From positions 1 to 40,902 of IMG/VR virus record IMGVR_UViG_3300028666_000057: a DNA stretch of 40,902 bases; one strand, given 5' to 3'. A program made the translations under genes and the position numbers. The notes under the pieces are model-generated. The model saw only the letters and a list, made by a program, of their open reading frames with translations, did no database searches and was not told the origin of the DNA. This DNA comes from a virus. Each line of letters starts with the position of its first letter. Position 1 is the first letter of the stretch. Positions 4,014 to 16,181 of this stretch are shown here, one piece after another.

Positions 4014-6075
4014 CGTCCAAGGGCATCGCGATGCCATGCGTCAACGCTCGCGTGCGATGACCATTGCTGATCAGGAGCTTGGAAAGATTCCGAAGCCCAA
4101 GGATGCGAAGCGCCGCGCCGCCGCGCTGGCGGACTTCGGAGAATTTCTGACTGTCTATTTCGTCGGACCGAACCGCCGTTTCTATGCGCCATTCAGCGCT
4201 GATCATAAAAAGGTGATCACCAACGTGCAGCATACGGTGAAAACCGGAGATCCAATGGTCGTGGGAATGCCGCGCGGATCCGGAAAGACCACAATTCTTG
4301 AAATGGCTCCTACTTGGGCAATCATCAACGGACTCTGGTTCTTCTGCCCGATCATCGCCGCCAGCAAAACACACGCGCAGAACATCCTCGCCAGCGTAAA
4401 ATCTATATTCACGACCCCCGGACCGTTCACTGACGACTTCCCCGAGTTCTGCGTTCCGATTATGGCGATCGAGGGAGAGCCGCGCCGGTGTCTCGGTCAA
4501 AGGTTCCACGGGGAACGCACAGGCATCGAATGGGCCACTGATCACATCCGATTTGCGGCCCTGCACGACCTCGGGTGGCGTCCAGACGTCAAAGGCGGAA
4601 TATTCTGGACCGCCGGCATCGGTGCATCCCTGCGCGGTCTGCGCTTGACGCTGGCCGATGGCACGCTCTGCCGTCCCGATGCGTGCGTGTTCGATGATCC
4701 ACAGACCGACGATAGCGCCGCCTCGCCTACGCAGACACGCAAGCGCCTGGGAATCCTACGTGGCACGATCCGCTACTGGGCGGGACCAGGTCACCGCGTG
4801 GCCCTGTTCGGAGCTGTCACGCCCATCAAGCCAAACGACATGGCTGAGCAGCTTCTCGACTCAAAAACTTCAGGCTGGCGTAGCGTCAAAAGCAAAAGCC
4901 TCGTTTCCTTCCCGACAAACATGGAACTTTGGCACCAATACCAGGAAAAGAAATACGAAGAGGCATACCTGGACGAAACCGGTCTGGCTTCGAAGTGGCT
5001 GAAAGATCACTGGGATGCCATGCACGCCGGGGCCGTATTGTCGTGGCCGGAGAAACCTGTAGCCACCGGATATGCCAGCGCACTTGAAGAACTGATGGCG
5101 GCCTACCTGGAAGATCCCGACAAGTTCATGGCCGAGCATCAGATGGAACCGCAACCCATTAACGCGGCGCAAAGCCGGTTCGACGCGAAGACTCTGGCAA
5201 AAAAGGTCAATGGACGCGAGCGCGCCGAGATTCCACCGAACTGCGCATACACCGTGACGTACATCGACACGCACGACAAGGCCCTGTTTTGGATTACCTA
5301 CGCATTCGAACAGCAGCGCACGCCGTACTGCATCGACTATGGCACATGGCCAGATCAGACTGTTCGCGATTTCACGCTGGAAAACCTCCGCAATACGCTT
5401 CGGCGCAAGTACCCGAACAGTGCGCCAGACGCCGCGATTTACAGCGGCATTCTGGAATTACTGGCGCATCTATACGCCCTGCGACTGAAAAAAGGTGATT
5501 ACTCTGCCGCGCTGGATCTTGTCATGGCCGACACCGGCTACATGCCCAACCTGTGGCATCAGGCCAAGACAATCCACCCGCAACTGGTGCTGACCAAAGG
5601 CGTCGGCATCAAGGCCGGCAACAAGCCGATGATCGAATGGGATCGCCAACCGGGCGAGGTCATCGGCGATCACTGGGTTCGTGCGCGCCCGAAAAAGCGT
5701 GAGCACCACGTGGTGCAGATTGATACGAACCATTGGAAAACCGTTGTAGCTGACGCATGCTCCGCTTCTCCCGGCCACCCCGCGGCACTCACGCTCTACG
5801 GCGACGCGCGCACCGTTCATCCCCTACTCGCCAACCACCTCGACTCCGAAAGCTTTGTCGAAACCGAAGGCCACGGCCGCAAGGTCATCGAATGGAAGGT
5901 AAAGCCCAACCGCGACAATCACTGGCTGGATGGCACAGTCGGCTGTTTCGTTGGCGCCGCGATTCTCGGTGCCAGACCGCAGGGCATGCCAGAAACACCA
6001 ACAGGACCAAAACGCAAACGATACACGCAGGCAGATCTCATGAAGCGGAGGAACATCAACCATGCAAGTCACTGA
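3988..6075 (+). CDS. Phage terminase large subunit (GpA-like)
   Basis: Packaging ATPase/nuclease of 695 residues. Walker A is GMPRGSGKTT at residues 93-102; Walker B is the acidic ACVFDDPQTDD segment near residue 230. The nuclease half carries TYIDTHDKALFW, consistent with the first acidic nuclease residue, and LVMADTGY further on. The C-terminus HWLDGTVGCFVGAAILGA resembles the end of lambda GpA-type terminases (NHWLD). GpA-type enzymes cut at cos sites, which would give defined genome ends. The start overlaps the previous gene by 26 nt; a later Met at residue 24 is possible but has no better ribosome site. It moves DNA through the portal encoded at 6608. Confidence 0.93.
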   Translation: MKRLTKGLNVQGHRDAMRQRSRAMTIADQELGKIPKPKDAKRRAAALADFGEFLTVYFVGPNRRFYAPFSADHKKVITNVQHTVKTGDPMVVGMPRGSGKTTILEMAPTWAIINGLWFFCPIIAASKTHAQNILASVKSIFTTPGPFTDDFPEFCVPIMAIEGEPRRCLGQRFHGERTGIEWATDHIRFAALHDLGWRPDVKGGIFWTAGIGASLRGLRLTLADGTLCRPDACVFDDPQTDDSAASPTQTRKRLGILRGTIRYWAGPGHRVALFGAVTPIKPNDMAEQLLDSKTSGWRSVKSKSLVSFPTNMELWHQYQEKKYEEAYLDETGLASKWLKDHWDAMHAGAVLSWPEKPVATGYASALEELMAAYLEDPDKFMAEHQMEPQPINAAQSRFDAKTLAKKVNGRERAEIPPNCAYTVTYIDTHDKALFWITYAFEQQRTPYCIDYGTWPDQTVRDFTLENLRNTLRRKYPNSAPDAAIYSGILELLAHLYALRLKKGDYSAALDLVMADTGYMPNLWHQAKTIHPQLVLTKGVGIKAGNKPMIEWDRQPGEVIGDHWVRARPKKREHHVVQIDTNHWKTVVADACSASPGHPAALTLYGDARTVHPLLANHLDSESFVETEGHGRKVIEWKVKPNRDNHWLDGTVGCFVGAAILGARPQGMPETPTGPKRKRYTQADLMKRRNINHASH

Positions 6076-8062: not shown

Positions 8063-8577
8063 ACATCACGGTAAATCCGCAACACCGCACCGCAGAATTT
8101 AATAGCCCATCCGTGTTTTCTCTTGAGGCCGCGAATATCACGATGACCGGTATTGCTGCAGCCGATTTATCTACGTTGAAACTGGCCCTTTTCTCGATTG
8201 GCACGCCTGAAACCCCTGACACTCTGGAAGTCACAAGCGTACTTCTTGCGTTATGTGAGTCGTTCACCCCTTCTGGGTCTAACGTGACATGCGTACTCGA
8301 CACTCGCACCACAAACGCACTGGAATTGTTTGTCGGCAAAAGACCAGATCAACGCATCCCGGTTGATGCTGTCCTGGCAGACAACACCAAACTTTGGTTT
8401 TCGCATACCGTTGACCTTATAAACAACCCGTTCTGCATTCCGGTTGGACCTGCGCCCAGCGTAATTTACCTGACCAGCTCCATGTTCGACGGCATATCTC
8501 CGCTATCTACGAACACCACCCCCGATGAAGTTGCCGCGCTTCTATCCGCAATCCTCACGAGGTTACAACAGCCATGA
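8059..8577 (+). CDS. Hypothetical beta-rich protein after portal
   Basis: A 172-residue protein of unknown family. It is rich in Thr, Ser, Asn and short hydrophobic beta-like stretches (AEFNSPSVFSLEAANITM), with no signal peptide, and ends in a helix (TPDEVAALLSAILTRLQQP). The ATG overlaps the portal stop, and its TGA overlaps the LamG gene start, so it is expressed with them. It might be a baseplate, fibre-attachment or fibre-chaperone protein for the next two products; this is inferred only from position. Confidence 0.6.
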   Translation: MNITVNPQHRTAEFNSPSVFSLEAANITMTGIAAADLSTLKLALFSIGTPETPDTLEVTSVLLALCESFTPSGSNVTCVLDTRTTNALELFVGKRPDQRIPVDAVLADNTKLWFSHTVDLINNPFCIPVGPAPSVIYLTSSMFDGISPLSTNTTPDEVAALLSAILTRLQQP

Positions 8578-10445
8578 TGCGCAAAATCATTTATTGTCTT
8601 GTACTTTCCGTTGCCATCGCCCAAGCGCAGACGCATCGCTTTGGAAGCATGCCGTACAATGACCTGGTCGTAACAAACGAGACAGACCCCGCTTTTGTCG
8701 CGTGGACCAATGGTGGTTTTCAGGGCGTCGGAGGAAGCGGCGTCGTTTGGAGCGTCAACGGCCAAACCGGCGCTGTTGCCGTAACTGCAACCAGCATCGG
8801 CGCGGTTCCGACGACTAGAACCATCACCGTCAATGGCTCTGTGGGTACGCTATCGAGCAATCTGTCATTCACGGTGGCGTTAAACACCAACGTCCCCACC
8901 CTCCAGCAGGTCACGACGGCAGGCGCAAGCACGACGAACACCGTCACCTTCGGCGGTGGCATCACCAACCTGATTCCCGGCCTCGCGCTGCACTACAAGA
9001 TGAACGACAACGCGGCAAGCCAGACAGTGGTGGATAACTTTGGCGGCTACAATGGATTTTCCGTGCGCAATACGTCCGCAATGTCCACCGCTGGCAAGAT
9101 CAACAATGCGCTTTATTTCAACGGCAGCGATTACGTCACGAATGCCCATCAGGCAATCTGGACCCGCGCACCACAGACCATGGCGGTTTGGGCGAAGGCA
9201 GAATCAATTTCTGTCGGCGCAGGTGCTTTTAGTATTTTTCAGAACTCCACGGCAGATTCAGACGGCGGCATGACAATCCTGTTGTCAAATGGATTGGCAC
9301 TATTCTCCACCTACACCACTGCTTTGAATACAGGAGTCACGATTGATACGGCTTGGCATCATTACGCCGTGGTAACTATCGATGGCACAAATTGGACGGC
9401 TTACATAGACGGAAAATCTGTCGTTAGCGGACCTGTTCCTCCGCTGGCAGACCATGGCGGCATGATGGAAATCGGCGCGGCAAACAATACCGCGCTTCCG
9501 TTCTATGGCGCCGTTGACGACGTTCGTTTTTACACTAACGCCTTAACCGCCGCGCAGATCAAAAACATCTACAACGGCACAGCGGGAACCGAACAGGACA
9601 TTGTTGCCGTTGTTCCTGAGGCTTACTTTGATGCGAGCGGTAATTTGACATTCCAATTTGGCAGCGTGATTTACGGACTTGATGCCGCCGGTTTTGGTGC
9701 AGACCCTCTCGGTTCTGCGGCTGCGGTTGCGGCGTCCGTGCCGAGCGATGACCATATTTATGGACTTGCATACACTGAGATATATACCTTAGCAGGTGGA
9801 TTGAGCGTTGCATTCGCGAGTAGTGCTTACTATGCGGATAGCTGTGGGTACGCGGGTGATGCTGGATTTGTGGACAATATCTCGGGCCACAACGTTTCCG
9901 AATTGAATAACGATTCGGGTTATGTTTCCAGCCTCTCTGGCCTTGACGGTAGCGGGCTGATAGGCATTACGGCCTCACAGGTGGGCGCAGTGCCCACGAC
10001 GCGCACAATAGCAGTCAACGGGACAATTGGAACGCTCACGAGTAATCTGGCGTTCACGGTGGCGGGCGTTCAAAACGGCCAGAACAATGTGCTATTTGGC
10101 GCAGCGAATTTCACCGGAGATGTTTCGATTGCCGGAAATCTCTACGTGGTCAACGAGATTGTGTCGAACAAATTAACCGTCGCCACCAATATCGCGGCAA
10201 ACAACATCACCGCCTCCGGCACCATCACCGCCACAAACGGCCTGTACTGTGGCGCGAATGCCGTGCTGACCAATGCCGCCGCCTTTGACGCCTCCGGTGC
10301 CGCCGCCGCCGTGACGAACACCCCGGCTTACGCCTACATGCCGACCAACGCCACTGGCAGCTATTACACCAATATGGCCGTTTGGGCTGGTGCGGCTACC
10401 AACCAGCTCAGCACAAACGCAAATACCCTCTACCTCACTTATTAA
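8574..10445 (+). CDS. Secreted LamG-domain protein with tail-fibre repeats
   Basis: Residues 1-19 form a clear Sec signal peptide (basic MMRK, hydrophobic core, AQAQ cleavage). A LamG/concanavalin-like jelly roll spans about 135-340, from GLALHYKMND to DDVRFYTNALTAAQIKNIYN. Two copies of a GAVPTTRTI-x-VNG module lie either side, near residues 78 and 472, each followed by GTL-S-NL-FTV. This module resembles repeats in phage tail fibres. LamG domains bind glycans, so receptor or surface-glycan binding is likely. A signal peptide on a virion protein is unexpected, since tails assemble in the cytoplasm. It could be a true fibre with a retained signal, or a cell-surface protein made during lysogeny or late infection. 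Confidence 0.8.
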   Translation: MMRKIIYCLVLSVAIAQAQTHRFGSMPYNDLVVTNETDPAFVAWTNGGFQGVGGSGVVWSVNGQTGAVAVTATSIGAVPTTRTITVNGSVGTLSSNLSFTVALNTNVPTLQQVTTAGASTTNTVTFGGGITNLIPGLALHYKMNDNAASQTVVDNFGGYNGFSVRNTSAMSTAGKINNALYFNGSDYVTNAHQAIWTRAPQTMAVWAKAESISVGAGAFSIFQNSTADSDGGMTILLSNGLALFSTYTTALNTGVTIDTAWHHYAVVTIDGTNWTAYIDGKSVVSGPVPPLADHGGMMEIGAANNTALPFYGAVDDVRFYTNALTAAQIKNIYNGTAGTEQDIVAVVPEAYFDASGNLTFQFGSVIYGLDAAGFGADPLGSAAAVAASVPSDDHIYGLAYTEIYTLAGGLSVAFASSAYYADSCGYAGDAGFVDNISGHNVSELNNDSGYVSSLSGLDGSGLIGITASQVGAVPTTRTIAVNGTIGTLTSNLAFTVAGVQNGQNNVLFGAANFTGDVSIAGNLYVVNEIVSNKLTVATNIAANNITASGTITATNGLYCGANAVLTNAAAFDASGAAAAVTNTPAYAYMPTNATGSYYTNMAVWAGAATNQLSTNANTLYLTY

Positions 10446-10450
10446 AATCC

Positions 10451-12634
10451 ATGCGCAAACTACTCATCCTAGCACTCTGCGTTTTGACCGGAATCGCGTC
10501 GGCCACGGATTATTTTTATTCGACCGGCAATGGATTCTGGACAAACATTGCGTTGTGGGGAGGAGCGGCATATCCAGGGCAAAACTCCGCAACAGATCGT
10601 GCAATTTTTACGAACAAGTTGGCCTTTAATGTTGCCGAGGGTCAAACCCTAACTTTATCTGATGTTTTATTCAGGAACCCTGTGAGTACAATAACTTTTG
10701 GTGTAACCAACGCCACACTTACACTCACAAATTCTTTATGGGTCGGAGACACCGCAACAGGCACTGTGACACTAGGATCGGCATCTTGGAATGGCACGGT
10801 TGTAATTACAAACTCCGCCATGACGGGTAGTTTGATGATTGGTTCTACCAACGGCCTCGGAACGTTTATTTTGAATGGAGGCATGTTGCTTTGCAACAAA
10901 ATCATTTCCACCAACGTGGGCATTGGATATTCCAATTCGATGTTCGTGACCATTGCTTCCGGGTCGACATTGATTACAACTAATGCACCCGGCGTGACTG
11001 TGGCAGACATTCGGTTACGAACTGGAAGCCCTAATTTTAATTGCTCAGGAACATGGCAAATGCAAGGCGGTAATTACAAATTCACAAACTCTCTCGGGAG
11101 TGCTGGCTATCTGTACGCAGGAACGGGAGGGACAAATATCATCAACGCAGGGACGTTCGTCGATTTAGGGTTAATGGGGTTTTCTTTTTTGGGAAATAAC
11201 GGAAAAAATTTGATCCAAAATGGTGCGATTGTGACAAATGGGTCTTCGATTTCTGGTGGAAGCGTAAATTCTAATCTGCTGCAAATATCAAATGGATCAT
11301 GGCTGAGTGCATCAAACTCCTCCACATCGTTTAGTGCTGGAGGCGTTAGCAACGGAGTCGTTGTGGACAACTCCACTCTGTTAATGGGGGCTTGTTCGTT
11401 TGGCCAGAACAGCGCAGCAAATGGAACTGGAACAGGTGGATCGTGCTGGTTGGTGCTGACCAACGGGGCTTATGTTTCGGCTGGTACATTCGCGTTTGGA
11501 TCACAAATTTCATTTACTCAATACGGTATAAATTATTGCCGTGGTTTTGTTTCTGGATTAGGAAATAATAGCACACCATCCACCCTTAAATTGGGGGGCG
11601 CATTTGGTGTAGGCACTGCACAAAGTTCCTGCTCGAATATTTTTATAGTTGGAGCAGGTGGCGTTGTTACCGGCGAAACTACCGTCGCGGTAGGCACCAC
11701 CGGAACAAACATTGCCAATCAGTTGATTATCAACAACGGGGGGCAGGTGTTTGCATCTGGCGCAATTTCTGTTGGGAATGGAACGGCCCCGTCGTCGAAC
11801 AACATTGTATCTGTGGGACAAGGCAGTGTGCTGGCGGGCGGAAACATGAGCTGCGGCACCGCGTCGGCGATTACTAACGACAGAGGCACATACGAGTATA
11901 TGCTGACCCCCACTCTCACGCCGGGCACTTTCGGGAACATCTCGATAAACAATGGTACAATTAGTTATTGCGGGGGAAACGTCGCAGAGGTGTTGTGTTC
12001 GCAGTCGGGTAAAGTTTTGGATTACACAGCAAAAATGTCATTCGGCGGCACAAACGCGTTTCAGCTCAACAATGCGACAAATGTCAATTCTGGTGAGGCA
12101 TACACGTTTGGCCCAAGCACACCTTTTAACTGGTGGGCGTTGAGATTGATTAGCGGTGGTTACTGGCGTGGCGGAAACGCAATATTTTCTTCGGGCAGCG
12201 CGCTGGTAGTGTCAAACGGCATTAACACCATCGCCACCAACGTGATCATGCAGGCGGGATCATCGCTGGTGATCGACGTGGGAGGTGCGGCGACTAGTCA
12301 GCTCAACATTACCGGGCAGACGGCTAACTTTTCCAACGCCACCCTTGCAGTTTCTTTACGCAACGCACCCACTCCCGGCGCAACCAACATCATCATTACC
12401 AGCCAATACGTGCCAATTAATTTTTATCCTGCAACAGCGTCGGCGGCATACGCAGGCACAACGTACAATTTTACAGTTGGATCAAACGCCACCAACATCT
12501 TTTTGGTCGCACAGTCCACCAGTACCAACATCAAAAATCTAGCCATTGGCACTAACAAAATCACCAATGTCTTTTTAGGTTCTCGGCAAATCAAAACTAT
12601 CCGCATCGGTACAAACACCGTGTGGAGCAACTAG
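10451..12634 (+). CDS. Secreted beta-solenoid-like protein, fibre-type C-terminus
   Basis: ATG at 10451 begins a signal peptide (MRKLLILALCVLTGIASA). The body of about 680 residues consists of irregular Gly/Asn/Thr/Ser-rich beta repeats such as GTFILNGGMLL and NGGQVFASGAISVGNG, as in autotransporter-associated beta-strand or right-handed helix proteins. The C-terminus NVFLGSRQIKTIRIGTNTVW matches the LGS-x-x-I-x-x-I-x-x-G-x-x-x-VW tip of small phage tail proteins. Base composition looks AT-richer than neighbours, suggesting separate acquisition. It follows the LamG gene by 5 nt. An adhesin or tail spike is likely; the signal peptide makes its location uncertain. Confidence 0.75.
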   Translation: MRKLLILALCVLTGIASATDYFYSTGNGFWTNIALWGGAAYPGQNSATDRAIFTNKLAFNVAEGQTLTLSDVLFRNPVSTITFGVTNATLTLTNSLWVGDTATGTVTLGSASWNGTVVITNSAMTGSLMIGSTNGLGTFILNGGMLLCNKIISTNVGIGYSNSMFVTIASGSTLITTNAPGVTVADIRLRTGSPNFNCSGTWQMQGGNYKFTNSLGSAGYLYAGTGGTNIINAGTFVDLGLMGFSFLGNNGKNLIQNGAIVTNGSSISGGSVNSNLLQISNGSWLSASNSSTSFSAGGVSNGVVVDNSTLLMGACSFGQNSAANGTGTGGSCWLVLTNGAYVSAGTFAFGSQISFTQYGINYCRGFVSGLGNNSTPSTLKLGGAFGVGTAQSSCSNIFIVGAGGVVTGETTVAVGTTGTNIANQLIINNGGQVFASGAISVGNGTAPSSNNIVSVGQGSVLAGGNMSCGTASAITNDRGTYEYMLTPTLTPGTFGNISINNGTISYCGGNVAEVLCSQSGKVLDYTAKMSFGGTNAFQLNNATNVNSGEAYTFGPSTPFNWWALRLISGGYWRGGNAIFSSGSALVVSNGINTIATNVIMQAGSSLVIDVGGAATSQLNITGQTANFSNATLAVSLRNAPTPGATNIIITSQYVPINFYPATASAAYAGTTYNFTVGSNATNIFLVAQSTSTNIKNLAIGTNKITNVFLGSRQIKTIRIGTNTVWSN

Positions 12635-12643
12635 GAGCACACC

Positions 12644-12970
12644 ATGACGCTACCACGCATAATCACCATCACATCCATCATTGTTTCCGTCGTGTGCCTG
12701 ATCGCAGCCGTGGGCACAGCAGATGACACCAATATTCCTGTGCAGATCGTCCTTGCTCCGCCTGTAAATCTCCCACCCGCGCAGTCACAGCGCCAGTGGC
12801 TACAGGCCAACATAACACCTAGCCAGGTCACCAACCTTTGGGCAGTTGTAATGCCGCAGCTCGTCATTCCATCCATCGCATCCAGCAACCACATCCAAAG
12901 CCTCAATTTCGTGCTGCTCCCGGATGGATCGGCACGCGTAACGACCATGTGGCAAGCCGACAAACCCTAA
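12644..12970 (+). CDS. Small secreted or membrane-anchored hypothetical protein
   Basis: A 108-residue protein opens with a hydrophobic segment (ITITSIIVSVVCLIAAVGTA), a signal peptide or an anchor, followed by a Pro/Gln-rich region and a hydrophobic LWAVVMPQLVI stretch. A TAGGAG ribosome site lies upstream. No known spanin or endolysin motif is visible. Position between fibre-like and holin-like genes suggests an envelope role, possibly in lysis. Confidence 0.6.
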   Translation: MTLPRIITITSIIVSVVCLIAAVGTADDTNIPVQIVLAPPVNLPPAQSQRQWLQANITPSQVTNLWAVVMPQLVIPSIASSNHIQSLNFVLLPDGSARVTTMWQADKP

Positions 12971-13022
12971 TTGAGTCACCAAGTCATCGAGACCCCCATA
13001 CACCACAACAAGGAGACTCATC

Positions 13023-14111
13023 ATGGACATCAAAGACCTAGCAATCGGAGTCGCCAGCGGAATGATTCGCGGCATCATGACCCTCGTATGGGGGTTTTTC
13101 GTTGACGCGCATCCGGCAATGGCCAACGCGCTGTCTCCGATCAATGATCCTTTGTTTTCGCAAATCATTGCGACGTTCTTGGGGGCGTTTGTAATTGCAC
13201 TTGGCGGTGCGATCTTACGCGTTCTCCGGCACAATAAAGTTTTTTCGGAAGCGTTCGACGCGGGATCAACATCTGCAACGATTGCCATCGCGCAGGACAG
13301 GGCAGCGGCGTCCGCGCTGGGCAAGCCCACGGCTGGCAATATCTCAATCCTTCTTGCGCTGGTCCTGTCCCTAGCGTCCTTTGCATCCATCGCAGCCGAC
13401 ATTGGCGGATCCAGCGACCAGAAAATTATGCGCGCCATCGATCAGGTCCGCGTCCAGGAGACTGCCTTACGCCAGGAGCTAGACAAACCCGGCCATACCA
13501 CAACCGAGCGCGCCGCACTGGAAAAGCAGGCTGACGCGCTATGCAACGAAGATACTCGGCTCCTCATCCTGTCAATGTTGCCGTCCACCAATACGATGCA
13601 CTCGGCTACCAATCACCCCGGCAGCGCCGTGAGCGCCAGCGCAACAAGCGCCTCCACATCATCTGGCCCCCGCCTCTACGCCACGGCAGGCATCGAGCTT
13701 GAGGCCCATCACGGCGCGCTGGCCGGTGCCAGCGATTACGGCAGCATCCTGCACGTCGGGGCAGATTACGGCCTGCTGGGCGTCGAGGGCGTTCTCACCG
13801 GCCCTCTGGACAAATCACAAACACACGTTCGCCGTTCTGCCGGCGTGGATCTAATCGTCTCGCCTTTATCCGGTTACCTTTTGCAGCCCTTCATCAGCGC
13901 TGGCGCCGGGTACTACTATGGCACCACCCGCTACGACACCTACGCCACCTGGGCAGCCGACATCGGCGGCGGTCTACGTCTCCCCATCAGCGATCACGTT
14001 TTTCTACAGGCATGCGGACGCGTCATGCTTCCCTTCGATACCACCAGCAACGTCTTCCAGATCGGCAACCGCTTCCAGATGGTTTCGCTGGAGATGGGAG
14101 CACGCTGGTGA
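13023..14111 (+). CDS. Holin-like membrane segment fused to outer-membrane barrel domain
   Basis: Residues 48-67 form a transmembrane helix followed by basic residues. Residues 106-125 form a second hydrophobic segment (SILLALVLSLASFASIAA) that looks like a signal peptide with a cleavage site. A charged helical region (130-175) and a Ser/Ala-rich linker (190-215) follow. Residues 217-362 show alternating beta strands (RLYATAGIELEAHH, LQPFISAGAGYYYG, AADIGGGLRLPI) and end in MVSLEMGARW, an aromatic-ended terminal strand typical of outer-membrane barrels. AAGGAG-type ribosome site at 13010. I infer a protein that could touch both membranes, such as a lysis protein. Two genes merged by loss of a stop is an alternative explanation. 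Confidence 0.65.
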   Translation: MDIKDLAIGVASGMIRGIMTLVWGFFVDAHPAMANALSPINDPLFSQIIATFLGAFVIALGGAILRVLRHNKVFSEAFDAGSTSATIAIAQDRAAASALGKPTAGNISILLALVLSLASFASIAADIGGSSDQKIMRAIDQVRVQETALRQELDKPGHTTTERAALEKQADALCNEDTRLLILSMLPSTNTMHSATNHPGSAVSASATSASTSSGPRLYATAGIELEAHHGALAGASDYGSILHVGADYGLLGVEGVLTGPLDKSQTHVRRSAGVDLIVSPLSGYLLQPFISAGAGYYYGTTRYDTYATWAADIGGGLRLPISDHVFLQACGRVMLPFDTTSNVFQIGNRFQMVSLEMGARW

Positions 14112-14380
14112 ATACCGAGAGCGTCCAGTGTCGCAAGGTGGCTTTTGGCACGGGCATGGAGAAGCCCGGAGACTTCTGTTTCGATGAATCCCGTACCACG
14201 CTCTATGTCTGGTACCCCGAAACAAGCGCCCCGGATGCAATTGCCATCAGTAGAAGTCCCTCGTGTGATTCACGCGTGTGGCTGTGGGACGGGAACGAGG
14301 ATGCTCCGTCGTTATATCCGAGTCTTGGTTCGTGGACATGGCACGGCTGGCTAAATGCCGGAAAACTAACTTCATGCTGA
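14108..14380 (+). CDS. Small Trp-rich phage protein
   Basis: GTG at 14108 overlaps the upstream TGA. The 90-residue product has the pattern RVWLWDGNEDAPSLYPSLG followed by WHGWLNAGKL, which I recognise as recurring in small phage proteins (W-x-G-N-x-x-x-P-S-L-x-P-S then C/WH-G) of unknown function. Four cysteines are spread along it. Its stop lies 11 nt before the patatin start, so the two are co-expressed. Confidence 0.6.
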   Translation: MNTESVQCRKVAFGTGMEKPGDFCFDESRTTLYVWYPETSAPDAIAISRSPSCDSRVWLWDGNEDAPSLYPSLGSWTWHGWLNAGKLTSC

Positions 14381-14391
14381 AGGATACCCCT

Positions 14392-15243
14392 ATGCGTAAA
14401 ATCCTATCCATCGACGGCGGTGGCTGTTTCGGCGCGGCACCTGCCGAGGTGATCCGGCGCTCCGGCTGCTTCCAATGGGATGCCCTCGCTGGCACCAGCA
14501 TCGGCGCAGCGCTCGCCATGTCTCTTGGCCTCGGCATGCAGCAAAATATATCCGCCGACTGGTTCCAAAAGTGGATGCCCGAGGTCTTCACTCCCCCATC
14601 TATCTGGCGCAAGCTCAATTCGCGTATCTCGCAGTACGATGACACCGGCCTCAATCTCGCCTTGCAGGCAGCCTTCGGCGATCTTCGCTTCGGAGAGTGC
14701 CGCGTCCCCACCTTCATCCTGTCCGTAGACATCGCCAACGCCACGCTCAAAGTCTGGGACTCCACCGACGCCAAGGACGGCGCAGAACCAGCCTGGGAGA
14801 TTGTCCGCCGCGCTGTGGCCGCAGAGACCTACTTTCGCGCATGGTGCGGTCACGCCGACGCCGGGATCATGGCCAACAACCCGTCCATGTGCCTGATCGC
14901 CGCATGCGCCAAGCGCCTCGATTGGCCCCTCAGCCAGCTTTCGCTTGTCAGCCTTGGAACCGGCTCATCAGCCTACGAAAGCGCCTTTGGAACCGGTCCG
15001 CATGGCGAGCTCACCACCGCTGCATGGGCTGTGGACGTGCTACTCCATGGTTGCTCGGACTGCATGCACGAGTATTTCGCCTCATCACTCGCCCCCCGCA
15101 TGGCCGGATACCTACGCGTCCAGTTCTCCCGCGGCGCCAAGGCCGATGGCTGGCGCATGGACAATCCGGACATGGCGACAATTTGCGTCAACAAATGGGA
15201 AACAGAAATCAACGCCGCAGCGGCAGAAGTCGCCAAAGTCTAA
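14392..15243 (+). CDS. Patatin-like phospholipase
   Basis: The 283-residue product has the complete patatin catalytic set: oxyanion loop DGGG at residues 8-11, nucleophile GTSIG with Ser36, and the catalytic Asp156 in HADAGIMANNP (the usual DG[A/G] reads DAG). Patatins hydrolyse acyl chains of membrane phospholipids. The chosen ATG follows AAGGA at ideal distance; an upstream ATG at 14374 would add six residues. No signal peptide, so it acts in the cytosol or at the inner membrane unless released. Neighbours are membrane proteins, suggesting a part in lysis or membrane remodelling. Patatins are also defence effectors (CapV in CBASS), but no nucleotide cyclase is present here. Confidence 0.88.
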   Translation: MRKILSIDGGGCFGAAPAEVIRRSGCFQWDALAGTSIGAALAMSLGLGMQQNISADWFQKWMPEVFTPPSIWRKLNSRISQYDDTGLNLALQAAFGDLRFGECRVPTFILSVDIANATLKVWDSTDAKDGAEPAWEIVRRAVAAETYFRAWCGHADAGIMANNPSMCLIAACAKRLDWPLSQLSLVSLGTGSSAYESAFGTGPHGELTTAAWAVDVLLHGCSDCMHEYFASSLAPRMAGYLRVQFSRGAKADGWRMDNPDMATICVNKWETEINAAAAEVAKV

Positions 15244-15257
15244 CGGAAAGAATAGCC

Positions 15258-15545
15258 ATGTCACCGCAAACCATGGAAGTCAACACGCTTGTCAACCAGC
15301 TAAACGACTGCATTTCAGAAATGAAACGCGAAACAAAACCACACGGAGCGTGTTCTGCCCACTGGCCGATCCACACGGCTCTGCGGCTGCTGTTGGAATG
15401 CCAAAGCGCTATTCTGAAGGAGCGTGCAGAAGAACGTGCGGCACGGGAGAAGGAAAAGAAACAGGCTCGTGCGGAGACAATTTCAATCGCCATTGCTGTC
15501 GCCGGTGTGATGGGTGGCATAATCGAATTGATTTGGAAACGGTAA
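15258..15545 (+). CDS. Small coiled-coil protein with C-terminal membrane anchor
   Basis: This 95-residue protein has a charged helix (LKERAEERAAREKEKKQARAE, read as two runs around residue 55-75) followed by one C-terminal transmembrane helix (ISIAIAVAGVMGGIIELIW) and a basic end. Ribosome site GGAAAG. It lies 14 nt after the phospholipase gene. The layout resembles tail-anchored holin or antiholin-like proteins, and it may bring the phospholipase to the membrane. Function is inferred from topology only. Confidence 0.65.
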   Translation: MSPQTMEVNTLVNQLNDCISEMKRETKPHGACSAHWPIHTALRLLLECQSAILKERAEERAAREKEKKQARAETISIAIAVAGVMGGIIELIWKR

Positions 15546-15582
15546 TACATTCACGCGCGAATTAACCCAAAAACGCAGATTG

Positions 15583-15599
15583 TTCTACCGGCAAGACTT
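15583..15599. repeat. 17-nt direct repeat, copy 2
   Basis: Identical to 6269-6285. It lies in the 146-nt gap upstream of the secreted protein and the protease-capsid gene, a place where a promoter for capsid genes would be expected. No clear sigma-70 hexamers were found at a fixed distance in both copies. Confidence 0.75.
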
Positions 15600-15691
15600 T
15601 ACTGCCTGTTTCACGCTTGCGCCGAACCATCGAGACGCCGACGATGGGAATCAAAGAGGCAAACTATTTCAAAACGCTAAAAGGAGTCGTC

Positions 15692-16135
15692 ATGAATCGC
15701 ATGTTCATCGCCATCGCCGCACTGTTCATCGTCGCAACCGCGCAGGCCCAAAGCTTTCTGGGTTATGGCGTGTGGGAGCGTCCGGACTCCATCAAGGTTG
15801 CCACGAACAACATCGGCACGAACCTGACCACGTCCATCACGAACGGCGATTCCACGGCGATCATGGTTCCCGTCGTTTCGCTGGTTCGCGGAACTCCGTT
15901 CAGCGGCGTCAACCCGACGAACATCATCACCGCGGCATTCACCCCGGCTAGCGGCTCCAAGTTCAACATCGGCACATGGACGTCGCAGGTTGTAAGCAAT
16001 GAAGCGCTGCAACAGTTGACGCTCTACCCTCCGCTGAAAGTTGGCGATTCGCTCACGCTGACAGATTCATGGACCGGCGCGACGAACGGTACTCAGATCC
16101 TGACGTGGTACTTCCTCGTCAAGATTAACTACTGA
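15692..16135 (+). CDS. Small secreted beta-rich protein before capsid gene
   Basis: ATG at 15692 follows AAGGAG and starts a signal peptide (MFIAIAALFIVATAQAQ). The mature part of about 128 residues is Thr/Asn/Ser-rich and beta-like (GTWTSQVVSNEALQQLTLYP, ILTWYFLVKINY). No family recognised. It is the first gene after the 17-nt repeat and sits 46 nt before the capsid fusion, yet is apparently exported, which is odd for a capsid-cluster product. Confidence 0.65.
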   Translation: MNRMFIAIAALFIVATAQAQSFLGYGVWERPDSIKVATNNIGTNLTTSITNGDSTAIMVPVVSLVRGTPFSGVNPTNIITAAFTPASGSKFNIGTWTSQVVSNEALQQLTLYPPLKVGDSLTLTDSWTGATNGTQILTWYFLVKINY

Positions 16136-16181
16136 TCTGCCATCTGCTTCGCCACCGTCAACCAACCGCGAGACCTCAACC

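Follow-up and report, generated by a model that had tools for sequence, protein, structure and literature searches.

One gene of a virus record, IMGVR_UViG_3300028666_000057, joins membrane helices, an internal signal-like segment and a probable outer-membrane barrel in one protein, and we tentatively propose that this protein spans the envelope and acts in lysis as part of a patatin-type cassette. The window, which is the whole stretch of DNA analyzed (40,902 bases), carries this fused gene at 13,023..14,111 on the positive strand, which is also the strand of the other features given below in the x..y form. The gene is a single coding frame with several hydrophobic segments, and it stands in a tight row of four genes that includes a patatin phospholipase. 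We infer the barrel, the topology, the uncleaved state of the protein and its role in lysis. The record also encodes a ParB-methylase, terminase, portal, protease-capsid fusion and cement proteins, a serine integrase and replication genes. A check found no end repeats, so the record is possibly incomplete.

One reading frame from the membrane helices to the spacer

The preliminary description of this DNA had read both halves of the protein as joined in one frame, and the reading was borne out. The 362-aa open reading frame (ORF) is uninterrupted and has a good ribosome site, AAGGAG, upstream of its ATG. A codon-usage score trained on the other genes of the same phage was positive in this frame over the entire ORF, including the junction at 13,203–13,383. 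The frame ranked best of the six throughout, with one reverse frame nearly equal at approximately 13,068–13,113. On this scoring we rejected a frameshift or two-gene reading of the region, as no second frame takes over at the junction. A scan for start codons found zero ATG, GTG or TTG codons from aa 53 to aa 136. Thus, the signal-like segment lacks a start codon for separate translation, and production of the second half by itself would not be easy.

Hydropathy placed a weak transmembrane helix at aa 6–27 (13,038..13,103; KD 19-residue mean up to 1.49) and a strong one at aa 44–66 (13,152..13,220; KD mean up to 2.16), the latter followed by a positive loop, as expected from the inner-membrane helix described earlier. 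The highest peak (KD mean up to 2.38) marks the internal segment at aa 106–126 (13,338..13,400), which resembles a signal anchor or a signal peptide, again in agreement with the preliminary description. This segment has a possible cleavage site, SIA/ADIGG, and contains neither a cysteine nor a lipobox. The loop at aa 28–43 has no lysines or arginines and the loop at aa 67–105 has four, a distribution that fits a topology in which the N terminus is inside, the chain passes out and in again, and the C-terminal part lies outside. The N-terminal part had been called holin-like. Hydropathy predicts membrane helices in it, but the whole protein had no hit of any kind in PHROGs at an E value of 1, the N-terminal 126 aa matched no holin family in Pfam at an E value of 10, and the label "holin" is one drawn purely from hydropathy.

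The helical spacer of the earlier reading was recovered by AlphaFold as a hairpin at aa 131–173 (13,413..13,541), with arms at aa 131–153 and 160–173 and a pLDDT of 81 to 88 in the core blocks. This run used no alignment, and the hairpin was predicted fairly confidently within a protein whose overall pLDDT was 41. A Ser/Thr/Ala linker connects the hairpin to the C-terminal domain. The only cysteines are at positions 174 and 331, and Cys174 sits in the spacer.

Whole-protein searches of phages, plasmids, viral_contigs, genome_contigs and 392 planctomycete genomes returned no credible relatives of the fused protein. Weak matches in two loci (L188 and L189) fell within unrelated proteins, were not reproduced by local tblastn and were rejected. 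A look at relatives for the two halves as separate genes had been suggested as a check; the searched collections yielded no relative to compare. Conservation of the fusion is therefore without support.

A probable barrel at the C terminus

The C-terminal 148 aa (aa 215–362; 13,665..14,108) are rich in glycine (21 residues) and tyrosine (9 residues) and likely form an outer-membrane beta-barrel, judging from a Pfam profile, strand alternation and the terminal motif. The domain ends in VSLEMGARW, in which V354, L356, M358, A360 and W362 make up the outer-membrane C-terminal motif of alternating hydrophobic residues with an aromatic residue in last position. When the 2,646 other ORFs with 180 aa or more from all fetched loci were screened, a single one had this motif; it was defined post hoc from the sequence, its aromatic end having already been named in the preliminary description. 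Amphipathic strand alternation in the domain exceeded that of shuffled sequences (p = 0.0185).

The Pfam family OMP_b-brl (PF13505) matched the fused protein with E values of 5e-4 to 8e-4 from five different query starts and matched none of five shuffles. The scores of 20.1 to 20.8 bits remained below the curated cutoff of 28.7. The match vanished when the query started at aa 210 or 217, which indicates that the score comes partly from the Ala/Ser linker. Ail/Lom-type Pfam families gave no match to the fused protein.

Structure prediction, named earlier as a check, produced the helical hairpin but, in runs without an alignment, left the C-terminal domain at low confidence: pLDDT was mostly below 35 in the whole-protein run and 31 for the domain alone. 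Such values, obtained without an alignment, neither support nor refute a barrel. Of the claim of a barrel ending in an aromatic residue, the final tryptophan is confirmed. The barrel is likely, with indirect support from the C-terminal motif, the strand alternation and the OMP_b-brl match, the last of these subthreshold and in part due to the linker.

A patatin row within an insert between portal and capsid genes

The fused ORF is the first gene of a tight row that continues with a DUF6527 protein, a patatin phospholipase and a small membrane protein. Its stop codon overlaps the start of the DUF6527 gene (GTGA; 14,108..14,380; PF20137, E = 7.1e-7), and 11 bases separate the end of the latter from the patatin-like phospholipase gene (14,392..15,243; PF01734, E = 9.8e-14). 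After a further gap of 14 bases, the row closes with a gene for a highly charged protein of 95 aa with one C-terminal transmembrane helix (15,258..15,545; KD 2.12). By alignment, the patatin has both the serine (GTSIG) and the aspartate (DAG) motifs. Among 50,697 phage records searched, it matched only the patatins of Wolbachia phage WO, to which it is approximately 29% identical. It also resembles models of CBASS lipases and anti-phage phospholipases, with scores below their cutoffs, a resemblance that may possibly reflect a link between defense effectors and lysis enzymes.

The gene right after the patatin likewise encodes a small membrane protein in three further viral loci (L280, L281 and L282). 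More broadly, a patatin with an adjoining small ORF that has a predicted helix recurs in viral contigs L280, L281, L282, L286 and L288. No endolysin was detected among the window proteins scanned, and no lipobox ORF or lipoprotein spanin, embedded or separate, was found on either strand at 6,000–27,000. Since the record is possibly incomplete, an endolysin or a spanin may lie outside it.

The row belongs to an insert of 8.1 kb (8,063..16,181) that separates the portal and capsid genes. In 157 related phage loci, mostly planctomycete, the portal and capsid ORFs are no more than 164 bases apart, as opposed to 8.1 kb in the window. The insert is well integrated, its first gene overlapping the portal stop codon, and the 157 loci contain no credible relatives of the proteins it encodes. 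The related phages, G001 among them, lack the entire insert and are thus uninformative on the fused protein. Besides the target operon, the insert encodes a LamG protein with a signal peptide and fibre-like repeats, and signal-peptide proteins of 727 and 108 aa. In the first of these, at 8,574–10,445, the LamG domain and the tail-fibre-like repeats (VNGQTGAV..GAVPTTRTITVNG, located at 8,799 and 9,984) follow an apparent Sec signal peptide, which is odd for a virion protein. The signal-peptide protein at 15,695–16,135 ends in ILTWYFLVKINY, which likewise fits the outer-membrane C-terminal motif.

Unlike the fused protein, the structural genes are members of a clear family. A planctomycete label was carried by 74 of the best 80 portal matches in genomes; the window portal is approximately 40% identical to all these relatives, an identity at which the host phylum is not settled. 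The secreted proteins are of a style that led us to suspect Verrucomicrobiota as hosts. The terminase-portal-capsid-cement module is present in several copies in certain planctomycete genomes (e.g., MHXZ01 and JAJVII01; L108–L187).

An envelope-bridging role and its alternatives

If the fused protein acts in lysis, the N-terminal helices would anchor it in the inner membrane, with the N terminus inside, a hairpin, and the signal anchor exporting the remainder. The helical hairpin and the Ser/Thr/Ala linker would span the periplasm, and the C-terminal domain would insert in the outer membrane as a small barrel. Its partners would be two products of the same gene row, the patatin phospholipase and the membrane protein of 95 aa, and the phage would be released by membrane damage together with a physical link or collapse between both membranes. 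This reading gains support from the absence of an internal start in the frame, from the helices and their flanking charges, and from the hairpin, the outer-membrane motif and the subthreshold OMP_b-brl match. It is further supported by the operon spacing, by the WO-like patatin, by the patatin and membrane-protein pairs of L280, L281 and L282, and by the fact that neither an endolysin (among the window proteins scanned) nor a lipobox ORF (at 6,000–27,000) was detected. The reading is weakened by the lack of relatives, by structure prediction that left the barrel unconfirmed, by the share of the OMP_b-brl score that the linker contributes, by the possible incompleteness of the record and by the status of the phage-patatin lysis role, which is itself a proposal. 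The anatomy given in the preliminary description largely holds. The earlier claim that the protein bridges both membranes thus stands in part: the layout fits and the context adds the patatin row, but the barrel is only likely and the internal segment might be cleaved.

Such cleavage is the main and a serious rival to bridging, although we consider it somewhat improbable. Signal peptidase would cut at the internal segment, and one gene would yield two products, a two-helix holin-like protein of the inner membrane and a separate outer-membrane barrel. The segment, LLALVLSLASFASIAADI, resembles the cassette's own signal peptides at 8,574, 10,451 and 15,695, and SIA/A is a plausible cleavage site. 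The hydrophobic run of approximately 20 residues is, however, long enough to remain as an anchor.

Small barrels of the Lom/OmpX type are known from phages; they start with an ordinary signal peptide and lack inner-membrane helices. The fused protein resembles them as a small, phage-encoded barrel (predicted here). It could serve in lysogenic conversion or superinfection exclusion, in the manner of lambda Lom, with an odd N-terminal extension and no part in lysis, and other secreted proteins do occur in the cassette. We regard this as unlikely, because it leaves the inner-membrane helices and the tight coupling to the patatin unexplained, and the protein matched no Ail/Lom-type family. Slightly less likely still is that two genes were joined by an error in sequencing or assembly, or that the C-terminal domain is a soluble beta domain: the record is metagenomic and this is a single instance with no relative found, but the frame is coding throughout with no other frame taking over at the junction, and the C-terminal motif is rare. 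Least likely is a component of the virion surface or of an entry module, given that the transmembrane helices and the signal-type segment better suit the host envelope, even though fibre-like, LamG and signal-peptide proteins share the insert beside the head genes.

As an envelope-bridging lysis protein, the fused protein would differ from the systems described so far. Unimolecular spanins (u-spanins) begin with a lipobox signal, end in a transmembrane helix and lack cysteines in the periplasm (PMC6139136). Like the u-spanin gp11 of phage T1, the fused protein would link both membranes in one phage protein with a beta-rich part. Unlike it, the fused protein has its anchor at the N terminus and Cys174 in the spacer, and a barrel would form its outer-membrane part. 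The protein starts with a membrane helix that has no cysteine, there is no lipobox, and its beta-rich end (...ARW) replaces a C-terminal transmembrane helix, all hydrophobic helices falling within aa 6–126. The likeness to a one-piece spanin drawn in the preliminary description is therefore one of layout, which fits a bridge, and lacks the two features that define the described class; the protein may resemble a spanin in function only. With Rz it shares a helix in the inner membrane at the N terminus and, after it, a helical region in the periplasm, but in contrast to Rz/Rz1, no outer-membrane lipoprotein partner was found at 6,000–27,000, and the part in the outer membrane would belong to the same chain.

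For phage WO, the proposed lytic cassette consists of a patatin and a small holin-like protein, which replace the endolysin (PMC9203015). The window has the same combination, in that its patatin adjoins the small, charged, single-helix protein of 95 aa and no endolysin was found in the record. The order and the membrane protein differ, the helix of the latter being C-terminal here and N-terminal in WO, and neither a barrel fusion nor DUF6527 is described for the WO cassette (PMC9203015). We also raise, with considerable reserve, the idea that one-piece lysis proteins bridging the envelope in this way form a class of their own, with a phospholipase taking the place of both the endolysin and the lipoprotein spanin.

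In a survey of spanins, none was recognized in 91 of 677 phages, or approximately 13% (PMC6139136), which raises the question of how such phages breach the outer membrane. If the proposal is correct, a bridge held by a barrel rather than by lipid, and paired with a patatin, would be a testable answer, and it would suggest that lysis by patatin extends beyond Wolbachia phage WO, for which it has been proposed.
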